Positions 1 to 8,320 of a DNA stretch of 64,000 nucleotides are shown in pieces. The notes under the pieces are model-generated. The model was not told the DNA's origin, did not search any database, and saw nothing but the letters and a program-made list of their open reading frames with translations. The position numbers and the translations under genes were made by a program. Source of the DNA: Rufibacter glacialis (GTDB lineage: Bacteria > Bacteroidota > Bacteroidia > Cytophagales > Hymenobacteraceae); assembly GCF_008271745.1 (NCBI RefSeq), contig NZ_VKKZ01000022.1:434001-498000 (forward strand), given 5' to 3'. Each line of letters begins with the position of its first letter. Positions within the stretch are counted from its first letter, which is position 1.

Positions 1-126
1 GATAATATGTTAGTCCCCGCTATGTCCGGAAGCTCGAGCCTAAATTTTGGAACAACCTCCGGAACAACCTCCGGAACAACCTCCGGAACAACCTCATCAA
101 AACTTCCAACTAAACCAGGTGGATAG
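1..126 (+). CDS. C-terminal tail of a GTTS-repeat protein (5' end outside window)
   Basis: The frame is open from base 1 to the TAG at 124-126 and gives 41 residues. It ends in four tandem Gly-Thr-Thr-Ser units and then a short basic Pro/Lys-containing tail with a C-terminal Gly-Gly. No domain is visible because the 5' part lies outside the window. The low-complexity Thr/Ser/Gly tail resembles flexible C-terminal linkers. It lies 63 bp upstream of the transglutaminase-like gene on the same strand, so the two could be cotranscribed. The function is unknown. It is supported as coding only by the open frame and by the repeats being in frame, multiples of three and perfect at codon level. Confidence 0.5.
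   Translation, partial: DNMLVPAMSGSSSLNFGTTSGTTSGTTSGTTSSKLPTKPGG
49..96 (+). repeat. Four tandem 12-bp repeats encoding GTTS
   Basis: Units start at 49, 61, 73 and 85. The first three are identical (ggaacaacctcc) and the fourth ends in tca instead of tcc. A 12-bp period keeps the frame, so copy number can change by slippage without a frameshift. It lengthens or shortens the C-terminal tail of the upstream protein. Confidence 0.9.
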
Positions 127-189
127 GTTTTAGAATATGAATTAATTATTATTTACCATTTTTGTTTAATAAAATTTATAATACACATT

Positions 190-1299
190 ATGAGCAATTT
201 TGTGAATACAATGCATATTTTAGGACGGTTTCCTGAGCTTAGTGATAACCAACCATTATTAAATTGGTTAGGAACTTATGGAGGGGATGTTTGGCATGAA
301 ACACCTGTGTCAGATGAAGGATATATTACTGTTATAGTACAATCTAAAAGTAAGCTAAATATTTTTGCTGCTCTGTTGCAGCGCGATATAAGTCGGATTG
401 ATGAAGGTATAATAGATAATAAACTTGTACGTACAGATGATTTTGATCTTACAATTCATGGAGCGCAAGCGGTTCCATCTGGTATGGCTGCACTGATAGT
501 AGGAGCAGAAACAGGAGCATCAAGTACTAATATTCATGCAATAAGGCCAATAGTTGATCTTAGAGTAGATAAGCCTCAAATATCTTGGGAGGTAGAAGTA
601 ATGTCAAATACTACGCTTAAAACCTTTAATATTAATTCTCAACAAGTTCTAACAAAGGTAAATGAGGTCAAATTAAAAAAAAGTGAAAGAATTGAAATTG
701 CAAAGGAGAAAACAAAGCCTACTAGTGATTGGTTAGAAGAAAATGAATGCCACCATGTAACAACATGGAGTTCTTTAGCAAGACAAATGGCAGGTACTGC
801 ATCTACAACCGCCGACCGGGCATTTGCAATTTGGGTCAGTGTTCGCCAAAGAATGGTTTATGATGGTAATATAACTAATATTAGTGAATTTACTTGTTCT
901 GATAATTTAACAATCAATCAAAATGGATGGCGTGGAATATGTGATGAATGGGCAGTTGTCCAAATTACTCTTTTAAGAGCTTTAGGAATTCCTGCTACAT
1001 TAAAATTTTTAATATGGAATAACGGTGATGTCGGACATGCATGCCTTGAATGGAACGATAATGGCAATTGGCGCCATATGGATGCATTATGGAATGCTTT
1101 TGATGATAGGGCAATTTACAGGAAAAACGGTGCTTTAAATGTAACTGTAATGGATGGTACCTCGCCAAGAGATTCGCGTTATGGCGGCCTAGCATGGGGA
1201 GTACTTGACGTTCCAGGTGATCAAAGGTTTTATCCTTATGGAGACTTTATCATCAATCCAACTTACCCGGGAAATCAACGGCCAGGTTACAGTTACTAG
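190..1299 (+). CDS. Transglutaminase-like (papain-fold) protein
   Basis: A 369-aa protein whose C-terminal half (about residues 205-310) carries the transglutaminase-core pattern: Cys251 in GICDEWAV, His283 in GHACLEW and Asp298 in HMDALW, with ordinary spacing for a Cys-His-Asp triad. Members of this superfamily cleave peptides or amides or cross-link Gln and Lys side chains; which applies here cannot be told. Residues 1-180 match no domain I recognise and look like alternating strands, perhaps a substrate-binding module. There is no signal peptide or membrane segment, so a cytoplasmic site is likely. The gene is AT-rich, follows the GTTS-tail gene by 63 bp and precedes a secreted protein and a protease on the same strand. 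The catalytic core is confident; the biological role is not. Confidence 0.75.
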   Translation: MSNFVNTMHILGRFPELSDNQPLLNWLGTYGGDVWHETPVSDEGYITVIVQSKSKLNIFAALLQRDISRIDEGIIDNKLVRTDDFDLTIHGAQAVPSGMAALIVGAETGASSTNIHAIRPIVDLRVDKPQISWEVEVMSNTTLKTFNINSQQVLTKVNEVKLKKSERIEIAKEKTKPTSDWLEENECHHVTTWSSLARQMAGTASTTADRAFAIWVSVRQRMVYDGNITNISEFTCSDNLTINQNGWRGICDEWAVVQITLLRALGIPATLKFLIWNNGDVGHACLEWNDNGNWRHMDALWNAFDDRAIYRKNGALNVTVMDGTSPRDSRYGGLAWGVLDVPGDQRFYPYGDFIINPTYPGNQRPGYSY

Positions 1300-1648
1300 T
1301 TAAGTTAATGTGCAATTTTCAACTTTATAAATTAACCTGTAGCTTCCTAAAGATTATAAGTTAATAGTGCATTTAATCAATTTGCCGAACAGTTCTTTTG
1401 ATGACAATATCAACAAATGAAATTATCCGATAACGCTCTTAACGAATAGAAGTTGCGCTTCCATTTTTGTACTTAGTTGGCTACTAATTAAGCGGTATAA
1501 GTATGTGATTTTTAATATATCAGTGCAATAGGGATAATATGTTTGCTAATTGTGCATTTAGATAGTGTCCATACTGCTGCCTTAGTAATTATGTATTAAG
1601 AAAGTTTTGAGGGCATTCCTTTTTTGTAAAACAGTAAATAAAATAAAA
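1300..1648. other. Intergenic, AT-rich, no feature found
   Basis: About 350 bp of AT-rich sequence between the transglutaminase-like gene and the secreted protein. No ORF with plausible coding character, no clear terminator hairpin and no member of the dispersed palindrome family was found. Confidence 0.6.
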
Positions 1649-3073
1649 ATGAAAACCCTTTATCTGATTTTAATGATAGTTTTAGTTACTAATTTAAATT
1701 CTTTGGGACAAAGTGTGAACAAAATTTTAGAAAACGGGAAACTAATTAAGAGGCAAGAAAAGATATTTTTAGAATATAATAATGGAAAATTATTTTACGA
1801 CTATGGTAAGGTTCCTGTTGATTTCAATCCTTTAACAGATTCAAGTATTTTTTTGATAGATAATACTTCTGTTAATATATGGATCAAATCATTGAATCCT
1901 CTAAAATTTAATAATAAATTTAATATAATTGAAATAGAAGATATAATTGAAAGTAATTACAATGAAGCATTCGGAAAATTAATTAAAGGATTATCAAGCC
2001 TTCTTCCTCCACCTGCAGCAGCTCCACCAGCTCCAGTAACTCCAACCCCTGAACAGCTTGCCTGTGATAATTATACAGATTATCTTATTAAAGGAGTTAA
2101 AAAAATTAATAATTTATTGGATAATAACAATAACAAAAATGTTAATTCAATTTTTAATAAATTAAGTTCATTAACATTTAATCATTCAATTAGTACTGAT
2201 ACATCTTTAATAAACCAAAACATAAAAACATTGATAAAGCAAAATGAAAATATAAAGTTAAGAATACAGAGTTTAAGAGACTCCATTAATATTTTCTCTT
2301 GTTCACCCTCTTTGAAGTTTCAAGAATTTACAGTGAAAACTTTAGTAACTAATATTTTATCTGAAGCTGAATTGGAAAGAATTGTACAAGAAAAGCGATT
2401 TAAAAATCTGAACAAGCTGTCATTGCTTGTAAGAACTACCATTGAAACTGCTAACAAAATAGGGGCTAGTGAACAGTTATATACCCCACTTGAACCAGTT
2501 ACAGCAATTAGAGGGAAAGTTAAATATGCTGTAATTGAAATTAGTAAAGGGGGATTTAAATTAAATAATACGGATATAGAAAAAGCTGAAATCGTTCAAG
2601 CCGAAGAAACTGATAAAATTACTAGCATTCTTGTAATAAGAAAGTTCTTCCGGTTTATACCTGATGTTTCCGCAGGTGTTGCCTTTACTGATATTACCTT
2701 TCCAAAGTTTGGTACAGCAGTAGATGCAAATGGGCGCACCATTATTGCCGATGCAGGCGAAGAGAAGCTTAGGAAAGTTAATGTAAGTGCAATGATTAAT
2801 TTTAATTATTTTGCGCCGGATATAAGGCCTTTATATCCTTTCGCCCAGCTAGGGCTAGGTACTAATTTTGATTATCCTACATTTTTTACTGGTGGTGGAA
2901 TTAACATAGACCGGAGAATCGCTTTATCGGGCGGGTGGGCATCAACTTGGGTAAAACAGCTTAACGAATTAAAAATAGGTGACCCTGTGCCCGGGACAGC
3001 AGATTTGGAGAAAGATATAACTCAAGAGTTCAATTGGTTCAAACCTTACTTCAGTATCCAATTAAAATTTTAG
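1649..3073 (+). CDS. Secreted or outer-membrane protein of unknown function
   Basis: A 474-aa protein when started at the ATG at 1649, which gives a standard signal peptide (Lys, hydrophobic run, cleavage near LGQS). An in-frame ATG at 1607 would put 14 extra polar residues before it. After about 110 residues there is a Pro/Ala-rich linker (LLPPPAAAPPAPVTPTPEQ), then an Asn/Lys-rich helical, probably coiled region. The last ~140 residues are strand-rich with alternating hydrophobic and aromatic residues and end in Phe, as in outer-membrane beta-barrel proteins. The proposal is periplasmic module, linker, then barrel or outer-membrane anchor. I do not recognise the family. Base composition matches the AT-rich neighbours and differs from the core genes to the right. 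Confidence 0.65.
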   Translation: MKTLYLILMIVLVTNLNSLGQSVNKILENGKLIKRQEKIFLEYNNGKLFYDYGKVPVDFNPLTDSSIFLIDNTSVNIWIKSLNPLKFNNKFNIIEIEDIIESNYNEAFGKLIKGLSSLLPPPAAAPPAPVTPTPEQLACDNYTDYLIKGVKKINNLLDNNNNKNVNSIFNKLSSLTFNHSISTDTSLINQNIKTLIKQNENIKLRIQSLRDSINIFSCSPSLKFQEFTVKTLVTNILSEAELERIVQEKRFKNLNKLSLLVRTTIETANKIGASEQLYTPLEPVTAIRGKVKYAVIEISKGGFKLNNTDIEKAEIVQAEETDKITSILVIRKFFRFIPDVSAGVAFTDITFPKFGTAVDANGRTIIADAGEEKLRKVNVSAMINFNYFAPDIRPLYPFAQLGLGTNFDYPTFFTGGGINIDRRIALSGGWASTWVKQLNELKIGDPVPGTADLEKDITQEFNWFKPYFSIQLKF

Positions 3074-4038
3074 TTTCAAGTTCATATTTAGTACCCATGT
3101 CAAGCAAATTATTTAGCGATTATTGAAGTACAAGGTAAAGAATGGAATAGTTTAAAGTTACTTCTGAGTTGATATTTGTATTTTTATTATTTTATAGTTT
3201 TAAACATGGGTACTGATTTAACTTAAATTATCGGAATCTTTAAAGGATTTTAAAAGTGTGTATGCTTTTTCATGATTAGAAAATGTGAATTTAGGTGAAA
3301 GATTGAAATTGTTTCAATTAAGCCTAAGAGTGTTTAATTGTAGTAGGTGCCTCTATGGCTATTAGGGTATAGATACCTGTTTCATTTAATTTTTTTATTA
3401 CAATGTCCCTGTTCCGATTTAAAAAGCATATCAATCGGTATTAAAAAAATGAGATGCCAAATTCAGCTAGATGACTTGTGATTCTTAGGGTCATATGGTC
3501 TGCATTTATTAATTATTATGCACTTGCATAAAATAAGAATGATTTAGTTGAACATACTAAAAATAATATCAAAGAGTTTTAATTTTGTCTAAGTAATTGT
3601 TATTAAAATTGTAATAATAAATTATATATTAGCCTGGTTGCTCCCTCCCAGCTTACCTTTAGTTGTTAAAGGTATATTTCTAAATGTAACAATAAAAAAT
3701 GTTATATTATGGATTGATGATACTTTTGTTGATACTAAAGATGGTGATTATAAAAGTAGCTTTAAAATTTCAGTAATTGAAGTATTTCCCAGACAATTAG
3801 TTTATATTGAATAGGAGGATGAAACTTATGTAAAGCATTAACAAAGAAAAAATTGTTTACAATCAATCGAATTACGTCAATATAATTTTGATTTTATCAG
3901 CATAACTTTCAATGGTTAACTATGAATAATCTATTTGCATTTATCATCATAGAAACTAGCTTTTTGTTTATTGATTATTAGTGAAAATGATGTTTCTTAT
4001 AAATTATAATTAATCTTCTTTAATTTAACTATATAGAT
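3074..4038. other. Long AT-rich gap with a possible gene remnant
   Basis: Nearly 1 kb without an intact gene. On the + strand, 3593-3814 is open for 73 codons, without an ATG, and its second half (from 3671) reads like ordinary protein, with an acidic stretch and an IEVFPRQLVYIE end before a TAG. It may be the 3' end of a lost gene. An AGGAGG-like sequence follows at about 3814 but leads only to a four-codon ORF. Nothing else was recognised. Confidence 0.3.
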
Positions 4039-5313
4039 ATGGAAAATGATTTTACTATGCAATTTGGTAACATCCCAGAAAGAGGCGAGACAACGGGTCG
4101 GTTTTTAGTTTCCTTTGTAGATGGAGGATCAGAGAAGAAGGACATGGACTTGTTAAAAAAAGCAAATTTTAATGTTGCTTCAACTAGTGACTTCAAAGAA
4201 ACTTCAATTTCGTCAGGAAGTATTCCTGATGACAGCAATGGAATTTATTATAAAGAGTTGGGTGTAGCTTTAATTAAAACAGAGCCTTACTCAGATCAAA
4301 TGACCTCTTTATTGACAAATAATCCAAATGGTGACATAATTATGGAACCTGAAAGGGTTATTTATGCTATTAAAAGTTTGGACAAAAAATATTTAGAGGG
4401 ATATTACGATGCTGTTAAACAACTTTATGAAAAGGCACAGGGTAGTCAAGGTTTTCAAGAACAAATTGAAGCCTTAACTGATCAAAAATCTACTTGGGGA
4501 CTATTGGCAACTAATGTACTTGCTTCTAAATATACTGGTAAAGGTGTTAAAATTGCTGTGTTAGACACAGGTTTTTATACTGGACATACAGATTTTATTG
4601 GAAGAGTAGTAGATTCTAGATCTTTCATTCCTGGCGAAGATGTTGAAGATTTAAATGGCCATGGCACTCATTGTATTGGGACTGCTTTGGGTTCTAAACG
4701 TTCTAATCTAGGATCTAGATATGGTATTGCTCATGAAGCTAATATTTTTGTGGGTAAAGTTTTATCAAATGGGGGCAGGGGGACTGATGGAAGTATTCTA
4801 GATGGCATTGAGTGGGCTGTTGAAAATAATTGTAAAATTGTTTCAATGTCTTTAGGCGCTCCATCTTTGGGACAATCTTATTCTCTGATATATGAGGATG
4901 CTGCTAGAAGGGCAAATGCGAAGGGAACCCTAATCATTGCTGCTGCTGGAAATGATAGTGCTCGTAAAAGAGGGAGAGTTATGCCAGTTTCTCATCCGGC
5001 GAGCTGTCCATCCATAATGGCAGTTGGGGCTGTTGACAGCAAGTTCAAGGTTGCAGACTTCTCTAATCATGGCCAAGTAGATATTGCAGCACCTGGAGTT
5101 GATATTTTTAGTTGCTGGAAGTCTCCAGAAAACTCTCATACTATTTCTGGTACTAGTATGGCTACTCCACATGTAGCAGGTATTGCAGCCTTGTATGCCG
5201 AAGCCAATCCCTCAGCTACTGCTTATCAACTTTGGCAAGCCCTAACTGGTAATGCTAAGAGGTTGAATCTGCCAAGCAGCGATGTTGGTGCTGGGTTGGT
5301 TCAAGCTAAATAA
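4039..5313 (+). CDS. S8 (subtilisin-family) serine protease without signal peptide
   Basis: A 424-aa protein. Residues 1-112 resemble an N-terminal I9-like propeptide domain ending in an EPERVIYA strand. The subtilase domain spans about 150-424 with Asp176 (AVLDTG), His208 (NGHGTH), oxyanion Asn305 (AAAGN) and nucleophile Ser373 (GTSMATPHVAG), so all catalytic residues are present. No signal peptide or transmembrane segment is visible at the ATG, which suggests an intracellular protease, unlike most Bacteroidota subtilases. A small I9-like gene begins about 67 bp downstream and may encode a separate inhibitor or chaperone for this enzyme. The AT-rich composition matches the neighbouring genes. 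Enzyme class is confident; substrate and trigger are unknown. Confidence 0.93.
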   Translation: MENDFTMQFGNIPERGETTGRFLVSFVDGGSEKKDMDLLKKANFNVASTSDFKETSISSGSIPDDSNGIYYKELGVALIKTEPYSDQMTSLLTNNPNGDIIMEPERVIYAIKSLDKKYLEGYYDAVKQLYEKAQGSQGFQEQIEALTDQKSTWGLLATNVLASKYTGKGVKIAVLDTGFYTGHTDFIGRVVDSRSFIPGEDVEDLNGHGTHCIGTALGSKRSNLGSRYGIAHEANIFVGKVLSNGGRGTDGSILDGIEWAVENNCKIVSMSLGAPSLGQSYSLIYEDAARRANAKGTLIIAAAGNDSARKRGRVMPVSHPASCPSIMAVGAVDSKFKVADFSNHGQVDIAAPGVDIFSCWKSPENSHTISGTSMATPHVAGIAALYAEANPSATAYQLWQALTGNAKRLNLPSSDVGAGLVQAK

Positions 5314-5380
5314 TTTAAACTTTTTGATCAATGAGAACGTTTTAATGTGTACATTGGTAATCATAAATTCAATTTTCATT

Positions 5381-5623
5381 ATGGGGCTTATGGATCAAGT
5401 AAAAATACAATTTATTGCTTCTATAGATGATGAGCATATGGATCAATTAAATGAGATTGTGCAGCGGTTGGAGAAAAAAGGTTTTTCCATACAGAAAGTA
5501 AGAAAGATTACCGGTACAATTTCTGGTATAGTTGATAGTATGGATAAAATCAGGGAAGCTAAAATTGAAGGGGTGAAAATTATTGACACAGAGAGAGAAT
5601 ACTTTACACAAGGCATATTTTAG
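5381..5623 (+). CDS. Small stand-alone I9-like propeptide/inhibitor protein
   Basis: An 80-aa protein from ATG 5381, or 77 aa from ATG 5390; the open frame reaches back to 5282, but the earlier part reads as AT-rich noise overlapping the end of the protease gene. The predicted pattern is strand, helix (DEHMDQLNEIVQRLEKKG), strand, strand, helix (MDKIREAK), strand, ending in IDTEREYF. That matches the ferredoxin-like fold of inhibitor_I9 domains, whose last strand normally precedes the protease active site. Similar small ORFs beside S8 protease genes are, as far as I recall, sometimes misannotated as ketohydroxyglutarate aldolase. Placement right after the S8 gene suggests it inhibits or helps fold that protease. 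Family assignment is from pattern and context only. Confidence 0.6.
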   Translation: MGLMDQVKIQFIASIDDEHMDQLNEIVQRLEKKGFSIQKVRKITGTISGIVDSMDKIREAKIEGVKIIDTEREYFTQGIF

Positions 5624-5696
5624 CACTTGAATTGACAATTCATCAAGAAAGCTCAATCATTTGATACGGTTAGAGTAAATTTTTTTTGATAATATA

Positions 5697-5744
5697 AAAA
5701 GTAAAAAAGCCTTATTGATTATACAATAAGGCTTTTTTACTTTT
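5697..5744. terminator. Strong bidirectional terminator after the I9-like gene
   Basis: A perfect 21-bp inverted repeat (arms 5697-5717 and 5724-5744, loop attata) whose GC core (gcctta) is flanked by A-runs on the left and T-runs on the right. It can terminate in both directions and closes the protease/I9-like unit. Confidence 0.9.
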
Positions 5745-5960: not shown

Positions 5961-7247
5961 GTGAGTGACATTCCTCTCACCAAAGAATTTCATAAATTGG
6001 GCTGGAAATCTCACCTATGGTATAGAGGAAGTGCATATGCCTAAATCATTTAAGCATTATAAGCCTTTGTTAAGAAATCCTCAAAGGTTAGAGCATTAGG
6101 TTCAAGGCATTCTTCCAAATCAATAGCTGATAGTGATGAAGAATTAATTTCATTGCAGAACCGGGCCTCAGAAGTAGCATTTGATACACAAGCACTAACA
6201 TTTACAGTAGAAGCAGGTTTGCGATACTGTGATCTTGCTACCATCTTGTAGGAACAAGATTATGCCGTGCCTAATATGGCTCCTTATCACATATCACTGT
6301 AGTTGGGCTTGTGCCACAGCCACCCATGGTTCAGGCACTCAAAACGGAAATTTGGCTAATTCGTTTTAGCCATTTAGTTTTTCAATGCTGCAGGTAAACC
6401 GATGACTATGTTCCGACAGAAAGTTGGAGAACAGTTCAACGGAGAAGTAGTGGCACTTTGAGGTTTGGGGGTAGTGACCAAGATTACCCTTGACCTACTG
6501 CCTTCCTTTAAAATGATGCAATTTGTACACCGGCATATACATTTGCGATCGCTGCAATATCATTTTTTTTTGGCGATCATGTGGTAAGGGTACAGCGTCA
6601 GTTTGTTCACTGATTGGAGAAACCAGAACCTAAACGAAGTCTGGATCAAAAGTATCGTAGAGGAAGGCCTTTCAGGTGAGGCAGAACCAGAGTTATTCGG
6701 GGCCAGGCTGGCAACCCAGAACATGCACCCCATTAAAAGTGAGTCGGCGGTAAATACCACGGAGCAGATGGGCGTACCCGGCCCCTGGTATGACCGATTA
6801 CCCCATTTCAAGATGGGCTTCAAGCCTAGCGCCGGGAAAGAACTGCAGAGTGAATACTTTGTGCCGGTGGAACATGCTTATGAAGCAATTATCGCTTTGG
6901 AGAGCCTACAGGCCTTCATTTCCCCTTATCTGTTCATCTCTGAGATCAGAACCATCAAAGCAGATGACTTGTGGCTGAGCCCGCAATACAGGCAGACCAC
7001 GGTCGCGTTCCATTTCACCTGGAAGCAGGATTCAGAAGCAGTGATGACACTTCTGCCGTTGATAGAAGAAAAACTGGAGCCATTCCATCCGCGGCCGCAC
7101 TGGGGCAAATTGTTTACCATGTCGCCCAAGGTTCTGCAATATCGGTATGAGCGGCTGGAAGACTTCAAGCAGTTAATCCAGAGGTATGACCCAACCGGGA
7201 AGTTCCGGAATGACTTCCTAGCCCAGAACCTTTATTCTACCACTTAA
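5961..7247 (+). pseudogene. Decayed alditol oxidase-type FAD-dependent oxidase
   Basis: Read across frames, the 1.29 kb encodes nearly the whole of an alditol/xylitol oxidase (VAO family, about 420 aa). In order: NWAGNLTY near 5995, a VRALGSRHS-like FAD-binding strand near 6087, SIADSDEELISL near 6120, TVEAGLRYCDLATI near 6204, CATATHGSGTQNGN near 6310, a region of KITLDLLPSFKMM type near 6480, then an intact frame from about 6577 through the ALO C-terminal domain to TAA 7245-7247. Lesions include frameshifts near 5982, 6080, 6290, 6375 and 6560, TAG at 6249-6251, and a TGA replacing Gly near 6459. Such enzymes oxidise sugar alcohols with O2, giving H2O2. The gene cannot make a full enzyme; only the C-terminal 214 codons remain open. 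Confidence 0.88.
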
Positions 7248-7921: not shown

Positions 7922-8320
7922 ATGAAAACCATAGATAAACTAGCCTGGATTGAAATCCATGACGGGAGAATCCTGAGCACCCGCAGCAAAGGGCGGAGCA
8001 AGTACTACATACCGGGAGGCAAACGCGAGGAAAACGAAAATGATTTTGCCGCGCTGTCCAGAGAAATCAAAGAGGAGTTAGACGTGGACTTGGTAGAGGA
8101 GACCGTGAACTACTTTGGCACGTTCCAGGCCCAGGCCGATAGCCATCCGGAAGGGGTAGAAGTGAAGATGACCTGCTACACCGGGTCCTTCCAGGGTACT
8201 ATTCAACCCGCCAATGAAATAGAAGAGGTGGTCTGGTTGGGTTACGCCGACCGCGAAAAAGTGTCTCCGGTAGACCAGATCATCTTTGACTGGCTCAAAG
8301 AAGAGAAATTGTTGTCTTGA
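7922..8320 (+). CDS. Nudix hydrolase
   Basis: A 132-aa protein from ATG 7922; the open frame extends to 7880, but the extra 14 residues precede the fold. The Nudix box runs from Gly33 to Val55 with Glu39, Arg47, Glu48, Glu51 and Glu52 in the GX5EX7REUXEEXGU pattern; the usual Gly is Asp54 (REIKEELDV), a common variation. Nudix enzymes hydrolyse nucleoside diphosphates linked to another group, using Mg2+. The substrate cannot be read from sequence. It is a single gene with its own surroundings. Confidence 0.92.
   Translation: MKTIDKLAWIEIHDGRILSTRSKGRSKYYIPGGKREENENDFAALSREIKEELDVDLVEETVNYFGTFQAQADSHPEGVEVKMTCYTGSFQGTIQPANEIEEVVWLGYADREKVSPVDQIIFDWLKEEKLLS

Follow-up and report, generated by a model that had tools for sequence, protein, structure and literature searches.

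The left end of the window, by which we mean the whole 64,000-base stretch of Rufibacter glacialis DNA analyzed here (bases 434001 to 498000 of a 554,512-base contig in a 5.3-Mb genome, the contig extending further left), carries a gene for a subtilase of peptidase family S8 and, directly behind it, a gene for a small protein. Both lie within bases 1 to 5650, a region with a G+C content of 33%, compared with 49% in the remaining window, that holds four genes, all on the plus strand, for a transglutaminase-like protein, a barrel-like protein, the S8 subtilase, and the small protein. An earlier reading of the same DNA, made without database searches (here, the sequence-only reading), had described co-oriented AT-rich genes at this site, and all of the open reading frames (ORFs) that it named are indeed present with this orientation and composition. 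The conserved unit is the last two genes only, and its features are as follows.

4039 to 5313, plus strand: S8 subtilase of 424 residues (PF00082, E = 1.9e-51; AlphaFold2 [AF2] model; catalytic triad; low N-terminal hydropathy).
5390 to 5623, plus strand: stand-alone I9-like protein, putative inhibitor of the S8 subtilase, 77 residues (80 when read from 5381), assigned by sequence profile, structure, and comparison of hidden Markov models (HMM-HMM).
5697 to 5744, listed on the minus strand with a T-run also on the plus strand: strong terminator-like hairpin of 20 bp behind the pair, a pattern match only.

The small protein has an ORF of its own, past the S8 stop codon and in a different reading frame, and is likewise a separate ORF in homologous loci. 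Between the S8 stop and this ORF lie 67 or 76 bases, depending on the choice of start, and no terminator-like site.

The S8 protein consists of a cis I9-like domain (about residues 17 to 110), a helix (residues 116 to 135), and a subtilisin-type catalytic domain (about residues 150 to 424). Its Asp-His-Ser triad and oxyanion Asn are intact (D176, H208, S373, and N305) and invariant across an alignment of 29 members of the family. None of 38 S8 proteins has a hydrophobic N terminus of the signal peptide type, the highest 10-mer hydropathy being 1.66, compared with 3.32 in the barrel-like protein. The AF2 model of the window protein (mean predicted local distance difference test score [pLDDT], 85) has unprocessed pro-subtilisin E as its top match in the PDB (3whi_A; 333 residues over positions 20 to 424; Z, 41.7), and subtilisins generally match at a Z of about 40. 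The N-terminal domain aligns jointly with the catalytic domain to pro-subtilisin E and to pro-Tk-subtilisin. Because the pro-subtilisin E match spans both domains together, the enzyme is predicted to carry its own I9 domain in the zymogen pose. The sequence-only reading had proposed a subtilase with all catalytic residues and no signal peptide, as we find, and its by-eye guess that the enzyme has an I9-like N terminus of its own agrees with this model.

The identity of the small protein could not be taken from Pfam, where the matches (DUF724 and GatC) were weak and misleading, and a family profile was therefore built for it. The Pfam I9 family, PF05922, does not match the window protein, and 3 of 26 family members match it weakly (best E value, 0.0021); a search of PHROGs with the window protein gave no match. 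Our profile was seeded from 12 proteins and run over all ORFs of the collected loci, 80 of which came from scanning species genomes. When it was built without the window protein, that protein was still by far the best-scoring ORF of the window (E = 1.4e-12). Across 395 genomes of the phylum, the profile gave eight weak hits besides the full-length partners, and seven of these are situated before the catalytic domain of an ordinary subtilase, i.e., in the propeptide position, which tips the balance toward I9. Likewise, in an HMM-HMM comparison the small family matched the N-terminal domain of the S8 family over 65 columns (probability, 78%; P = 1.8e-5), whereas the catalytic part, used as a control, gave 0.4%. 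A sequence search of the PDB with the family profile gave weak matches, with the Tk-subtilisin propeptide (E of about 0.15 to 0.3) appearing among designed proteins.

The AF2 model of the small protein (pLDDT, 87) points in the same direction. Its structural matches in the PDB are dominated by subtilisin propeptides, namely, the Tk-propeptide (1.6 Å over 59 residues; Z, 8.4) and those of pro-subtilisin E and BPN', and include the stand-alone inhibitor POIA1 (1itp and 1v5i; Z, 7.5; identity, 13%). In the BPN' propeptide, Glu69 and Asp71 act as helix-capping residues (PMC6993865); the window protein has Asp and Glu at the matching positions. An acidic residue occupies at least one of the two positions in 37 of 38 members, and 16, the window protein among them, have acidic residues at both. 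Most members end in a proline-rich tail, PPPDS..Q. Taken together, the profile, HMM-HMM, and structural evidence supports the view of the small protein as a free homologue of I9-type propeptides, as the sequence-only reading had supposed from its looks, and the I9 fold by which it had proposed to check this view is what the model returned.

The two genes are conserved as a pair. We defined the S8 subfamily as loci scoring at least 201 bits with the window S8 protein (45 other loci) and used 69 subtilase loci scoring no more than 185 bits as controls. At 38 of the 45 subfamily loci, 27 of them outside the profile seed, a profile-confirmed partner in the same orientation follows the S8 gene at a distance of no more than about 170 bases. 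At five more, four of Chryseobacterium type and one on a Vibrio plasmid, the downstream ORF of 65 to 81 codons is beyond the reach of the profile. Counting these, the pair is kept at 43 of 45 loci, while no partner was found at any of the 69 controls; the gene-order search that the sequence-only reading had called for thus came out in favor of the S8 gene and the small gene. An initial search in relatives had already turned up two S8 genes whose products are close homologues, with 54% and 44% identity over the aligned portions, each directly followed by an ORF of 77 to 93 codons, although BLAST detected no similarity between the window small protein and the ORF behind the first of them. Plasmid-borne S8 homologues in Methylobacterium, Rhizobium, Hymenobacter, Streptomyces, Palleronia, Vibrio, and Deinococcus have an ORF of 75 to 87 codons directly behind them, annotated as hypothetical.

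The pair is broadly but sparsely distributed. Pair loci occur in at least eight phyla (Bacteroidota, Pseudomonadota, Actinomycetota, Bacillota, Cyanobacteriota, Chloroflexota, Acidobacteriota, and Deinococcota), and since the same pair recurs across these phyla it is probably a portable enzyme-plus-inhibitor unit. The window is placed in Bacteroidota by its relatives, since loci in genomes of the same class have neighboring genes that match those of Chryseobacterium gambrini. Of the 395 genomes of this phylum, seven have the S8 subfamily and four the full-length partner, which in each case adjoins the S8 gene. The distance matrix of the partners correlates with that of the S8 catalytic domains (r = 0.53) and of the cis domains (r = 0.60), values reached in none of 2,000 permutations. 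Beside the pairs, we found no further recurring gene family that would point to an additional partner. The only modification-type neighborhood that we saw is on the Vibrio plasmid pSEA2, where the pair has a gene annotated as DndB on one side and one for a DNA cytosine methyltransferase on the other. In one genome (G087; loci L025 and L031), two subfamily S8 genes stand in tandem with a small partner gene between them, and none was found behind the second copy.

These observations lead us to regard the two genes as a portable protease-inhibitor unit, with the I9 domain in cis serving to fold the enzyme and the I9 protein in trans keeping its mature form in check within the cell, a reading to which we assign a probability of roughly 0.7. 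We infer binding, inhibition, maturation, and trigger as follows. The subtilase would be synthesized as a cytoplasmic protein bearing an I9 domain of its own, which would sit on the catalytic domain as in pro-subtilisin and aid folding. At maturation this domain would be cut off or displaced, judging from the family at large. The second gene would supply a separate I9 protein in trans that caps the mature enzyme in the manner of a propeptide, its sheet lying on two surface helices, the acidic residues near its last strand capping both helices, and its C-terminal tail placed in or near the active-site cleft. The subtilase would then remain silent in the cell and become active only upon removal, dilution, or degradation of the inhibitor. 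The stand-alone I9 proteins that have been tested do inhibit subtilases, and in SUB1 the propeptide tail is not essential for inhibition (PMC6993865). The guess of a protease with a dedicated inhibitor, made in the sequence-only reading, is thus well supported by comparative evidence, with inhibition itself predicted.

Several points weigh against this interpretation. The ferredoxin-like fold is common, and fold alone is not decisive for I9 identity: it is NapD, another ferredoxin-like protein, that tops the structural matches of the small protein by Z score (9.8, though at 4.9 Å), and RAM or Lrp-type domains score near 7.5. The assignment of the capping positions depends on the alignment of distant sequences. 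The tail of the window protein, TQGIF, lacks the PPPDS..Q motif, and some other members stop before it. Two of the 45 subfamily loci have no partner, i.e., L049 and the second of the tandem S8 copies, in L031. Finally, neighboring genes that travel together yield correlated distances even without interaction.

A different role for the small protein is that of a folding helper: as an intermolecular chaperone it would support the cis domain or take its place, and inhibition would be incidental. Its resemblance to the cis domain and the position of its gene directly 3' of the enzyme gene would fit such a role, and in mesophilic bacterial subtilases the I9 propeptide serves as a chaperone as well as an inhibitor (PMC10580911). 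However, the model of the S8 protein already shows an I9 domain in cis, placed as in a zymogen, so that a second folding helper would be redundant, and the characterized stand-alone I9 proteins have so far acted as inhibitors (PMC6993865). We therefore consider a chaperone in trans unlikely, though it is a live alternative and fares best among them.

Unlikely to about the same degree, but likewise live, is the idea that the pair works like a toxin-antitoxin or defense module, in which a lethal cytoplasmic protease is kept in check by a labile inhibitor and becomes free once that inhibitor disappears or a phage intervenes. Pairs do reside on plasmids and, in this genus, in a hotspot of changing cargo; one pair adjoins a recombinase gene (L005); the distribution is sparse (the 7 of 395 genomes above); and the generic "subtilase" model of PADLOC matches the S8 protein at 6.2e-29, with the models of the anti-phage protein IetS weaker at 1.3e-11. 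Yet no defense neighbor recurs among the pairs, and an accessory distribution by itself does not show defense. The PADLOC match, like those in NCBIfam, stems from the generic catalytic domain that subtilases share, and we rejected a defense-system label for the S8 protein on this ground. Membership in the Iet system (IetA plus IetS) was rejected as well: the IetS models match the catalytic domain only, the NCBIfam IetS score is 18 against a cutoff of 900, and no gene for an IetA-type ATPase lies beside the S8 gene. The conflict or defense system suggested by the sequence-only reading has no direct evidence in its favor, the placement in a hotspot and on plasmids being compatible with it but not specific. 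We hold it improbable, if conceivable, that the pair represents a widespread mobile bacterial module in which a dedicated stand-alone I9 inhibitor restrains a cytoplasmic subtilase zymogen until a signal sets the zymogen free, so as to form a proteolytic toxin-antitoxin system or an anti-phage suicide switch.

The sequence-only reading had also placed the two upstream genes in the same system as the pair. Their features are as follows.

190 to 1299, plus strand: transglutaminase-like protein of 369 residues, outside the conserved unit (PF01841, Transglut_core, E = 2.3e-9).
1649 to 3073, plus strand: exported, possibly outer membrane, barrel-like protein of 474 residues, outside the conserved unit (signal-like N terminus).

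The descriptions of the single proteins proved accurate. The catalytic residues of the transglutaminase-like protein are present (Cys251, His283, and Asp298), as expected for an intact Cys-His-Asp core, and the barrel-like protein, with its best start at 1649 (ATG), has the hydrophobic, signal-like N terminus of a secreted protein (the 10-mer hydropathy of 3.32 mentioned above); a Pfam search with it gave no match. That the whole 5.6-kb cluster of transglutaminase, barrel protein, protease, and inhibitor is one system, as co-orientation and shared low G+C content might suggest, is nevertheless very improbable, and we rejected a system of four to five genes. No homologue of either upstream gene lies next to any other S8 pair, and gaps of 349 bases (transglutaminase-like to barrel-like gene) and 965 bases (barrel-like to S8 gene) separate the genes. 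A search of 97 relatives did not turn up the transglutaminase-like gene. The one plasmid homologue that we found, full length and 40% identical (L126:5998-7098), is on a conjugative plasmid of Cupriavidus taiwanensis, in a region rich in integrases and transposases, with no S8 gene nearby. Homologues of the barrel-like protein occur in four relatives, none of them beside an S8 pair.

The surroundings offer an account of why these genes adjoin. A hotspot extends from L002:12881-14389, left of the window, to window position 8320, flanked by a histidine kinase/response regulator gene pair and a NUDIX gene, and between the response regulator and NUDIX genes six congeners carry differing cargo of about 8 to 16 kb. 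In three of these the cargo includes the barrel-like family without the S8 pair, and in one it includes a subtilase with an SH3-like N terminus followed by an exported protein (L131:2016-5179). The transglutaminase-like and barrel-like genes are separate cargo of this hotspot and not part of the pair system; the four genes adjoin because of where they landed. At 6603 to 7247 of the window, only the C-terminal half of a lactone oxidase-like gene (PF04030) is left, where congeners have an ORF of 424 to 481 codons, so the arrival of the low-G+C region may have removed the first half. Extending the contig leftward, as the sequence-only reading had proposed, revealed an ORF of 174 codons across the left edge of the window (L002:14602-15126; window -399 to 126). 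It precedes the transglutaminase-like gene, overlaps the first 126 window bases, and encodes one hydrophobic stretch and a tandem Gly-Thr-Thr-Ser repeat; no homologue was found in the hotspot of the congeners.

It is also very improbable that the S8 enzyme acts on the small protein as its substrate or precursor peptide, in the manner of ribosomal-peptide clusters, or that the small protein does something unrelated. Some S8 peptidases do process peptides encoded nearby, and the NCBIfam models PatA and QhpE match through the shared catalytic domain. The small family, however, shows a compact I9 fold built around a conserved core and not the layout of a leader-core peptide, its profile relatives are propeptides, and no maturase or transporter recurs near the pairs.

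If the two genes are a protease-inhibitor unit, as we favor, then a conserved bacterial pair with cis and trans I9 domains, presumably acting on one enzyme, would show how a cell keeps a subtilisin in its own cytoplasm. The pair also constitutes a small and testable system in many culturable bacteria, and it raises the question of whether the inhibitors in trans derive from a duplicated cis propeptide, as the HMM-HMM match hints. Since it is found on plasmids and in a cargo hotspot, a role in conflict merits consideration. Our literature search returned no paper describing the bacterial pair, but it covered few subscription journals and hence is no proof of novelty.

Among known systems, the nearest in function is the cytoplasmic subtilase ISP of Bacillus, for which an inhibitor, IPI, has been reported (PMC3901451); it is likewise placed under inhibitor control, which in our pair is predicted. 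However, IPI has an Ig-like fold instead of an I9 fold, and ISP is restrained by a short N-terminal pro-peptide with a LIPY/F motif (PMC6220982) in place of an I9 domain. The window S8 protein has a full I9-like N-terminal domain and lacks the LIPY/F motif, and we rejected its assignment as a Bacillus-type ISP. The propeptides of secreted subtilases such as subtilisin E and Tk-subtilisin share the I9 fold, and the modelled zymogen arrangement of the window enzyme is the same as theirs (3whi). In those systems, however, I9 is present in cis only and the enzyme is exported, whereas the window pair adds a further I9 protein with a gene of its own. The nearest analogues with test data are SUB1-ProM of Plasmodium and the eukaryotic stand-alone I9 inhibitors. 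SUB1-ProM is also a stand-alone, propeptide-like protein that is encoded next to subtilase genes, resembles the cis propeptide, and has been shown to inhibit potently (PMC6993865). It carries a secretory signal and acts in the parasitophorous vacuole of a protozoan, in contrast to the two-gene bacterial unit, which has no signal peptide. The stand-alone I9 inhibitors listed in MEROPS (the yeast peptidase B inhibitor, POIA1 of Pleurotus, and SPI-1 of Arabidopsis) are likewise small, free proteins of the propeptide fold outside enzyme precursors, and the well-characterized ones named in the same source (PMC6993865) are eukaryotic, whereas the family described here is bacterial and spans the phyla listed above. 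Here, moreover, the gene lies directly behind that of the presumed target enzyme, and the identity to POIA1 is only 13%. Stand-alone I9 inhibitors as such were thus already known; what appears new is a bacterial, operon-like arrangement with one I9 domain in cis and another, a putative inhibitor, in trans.

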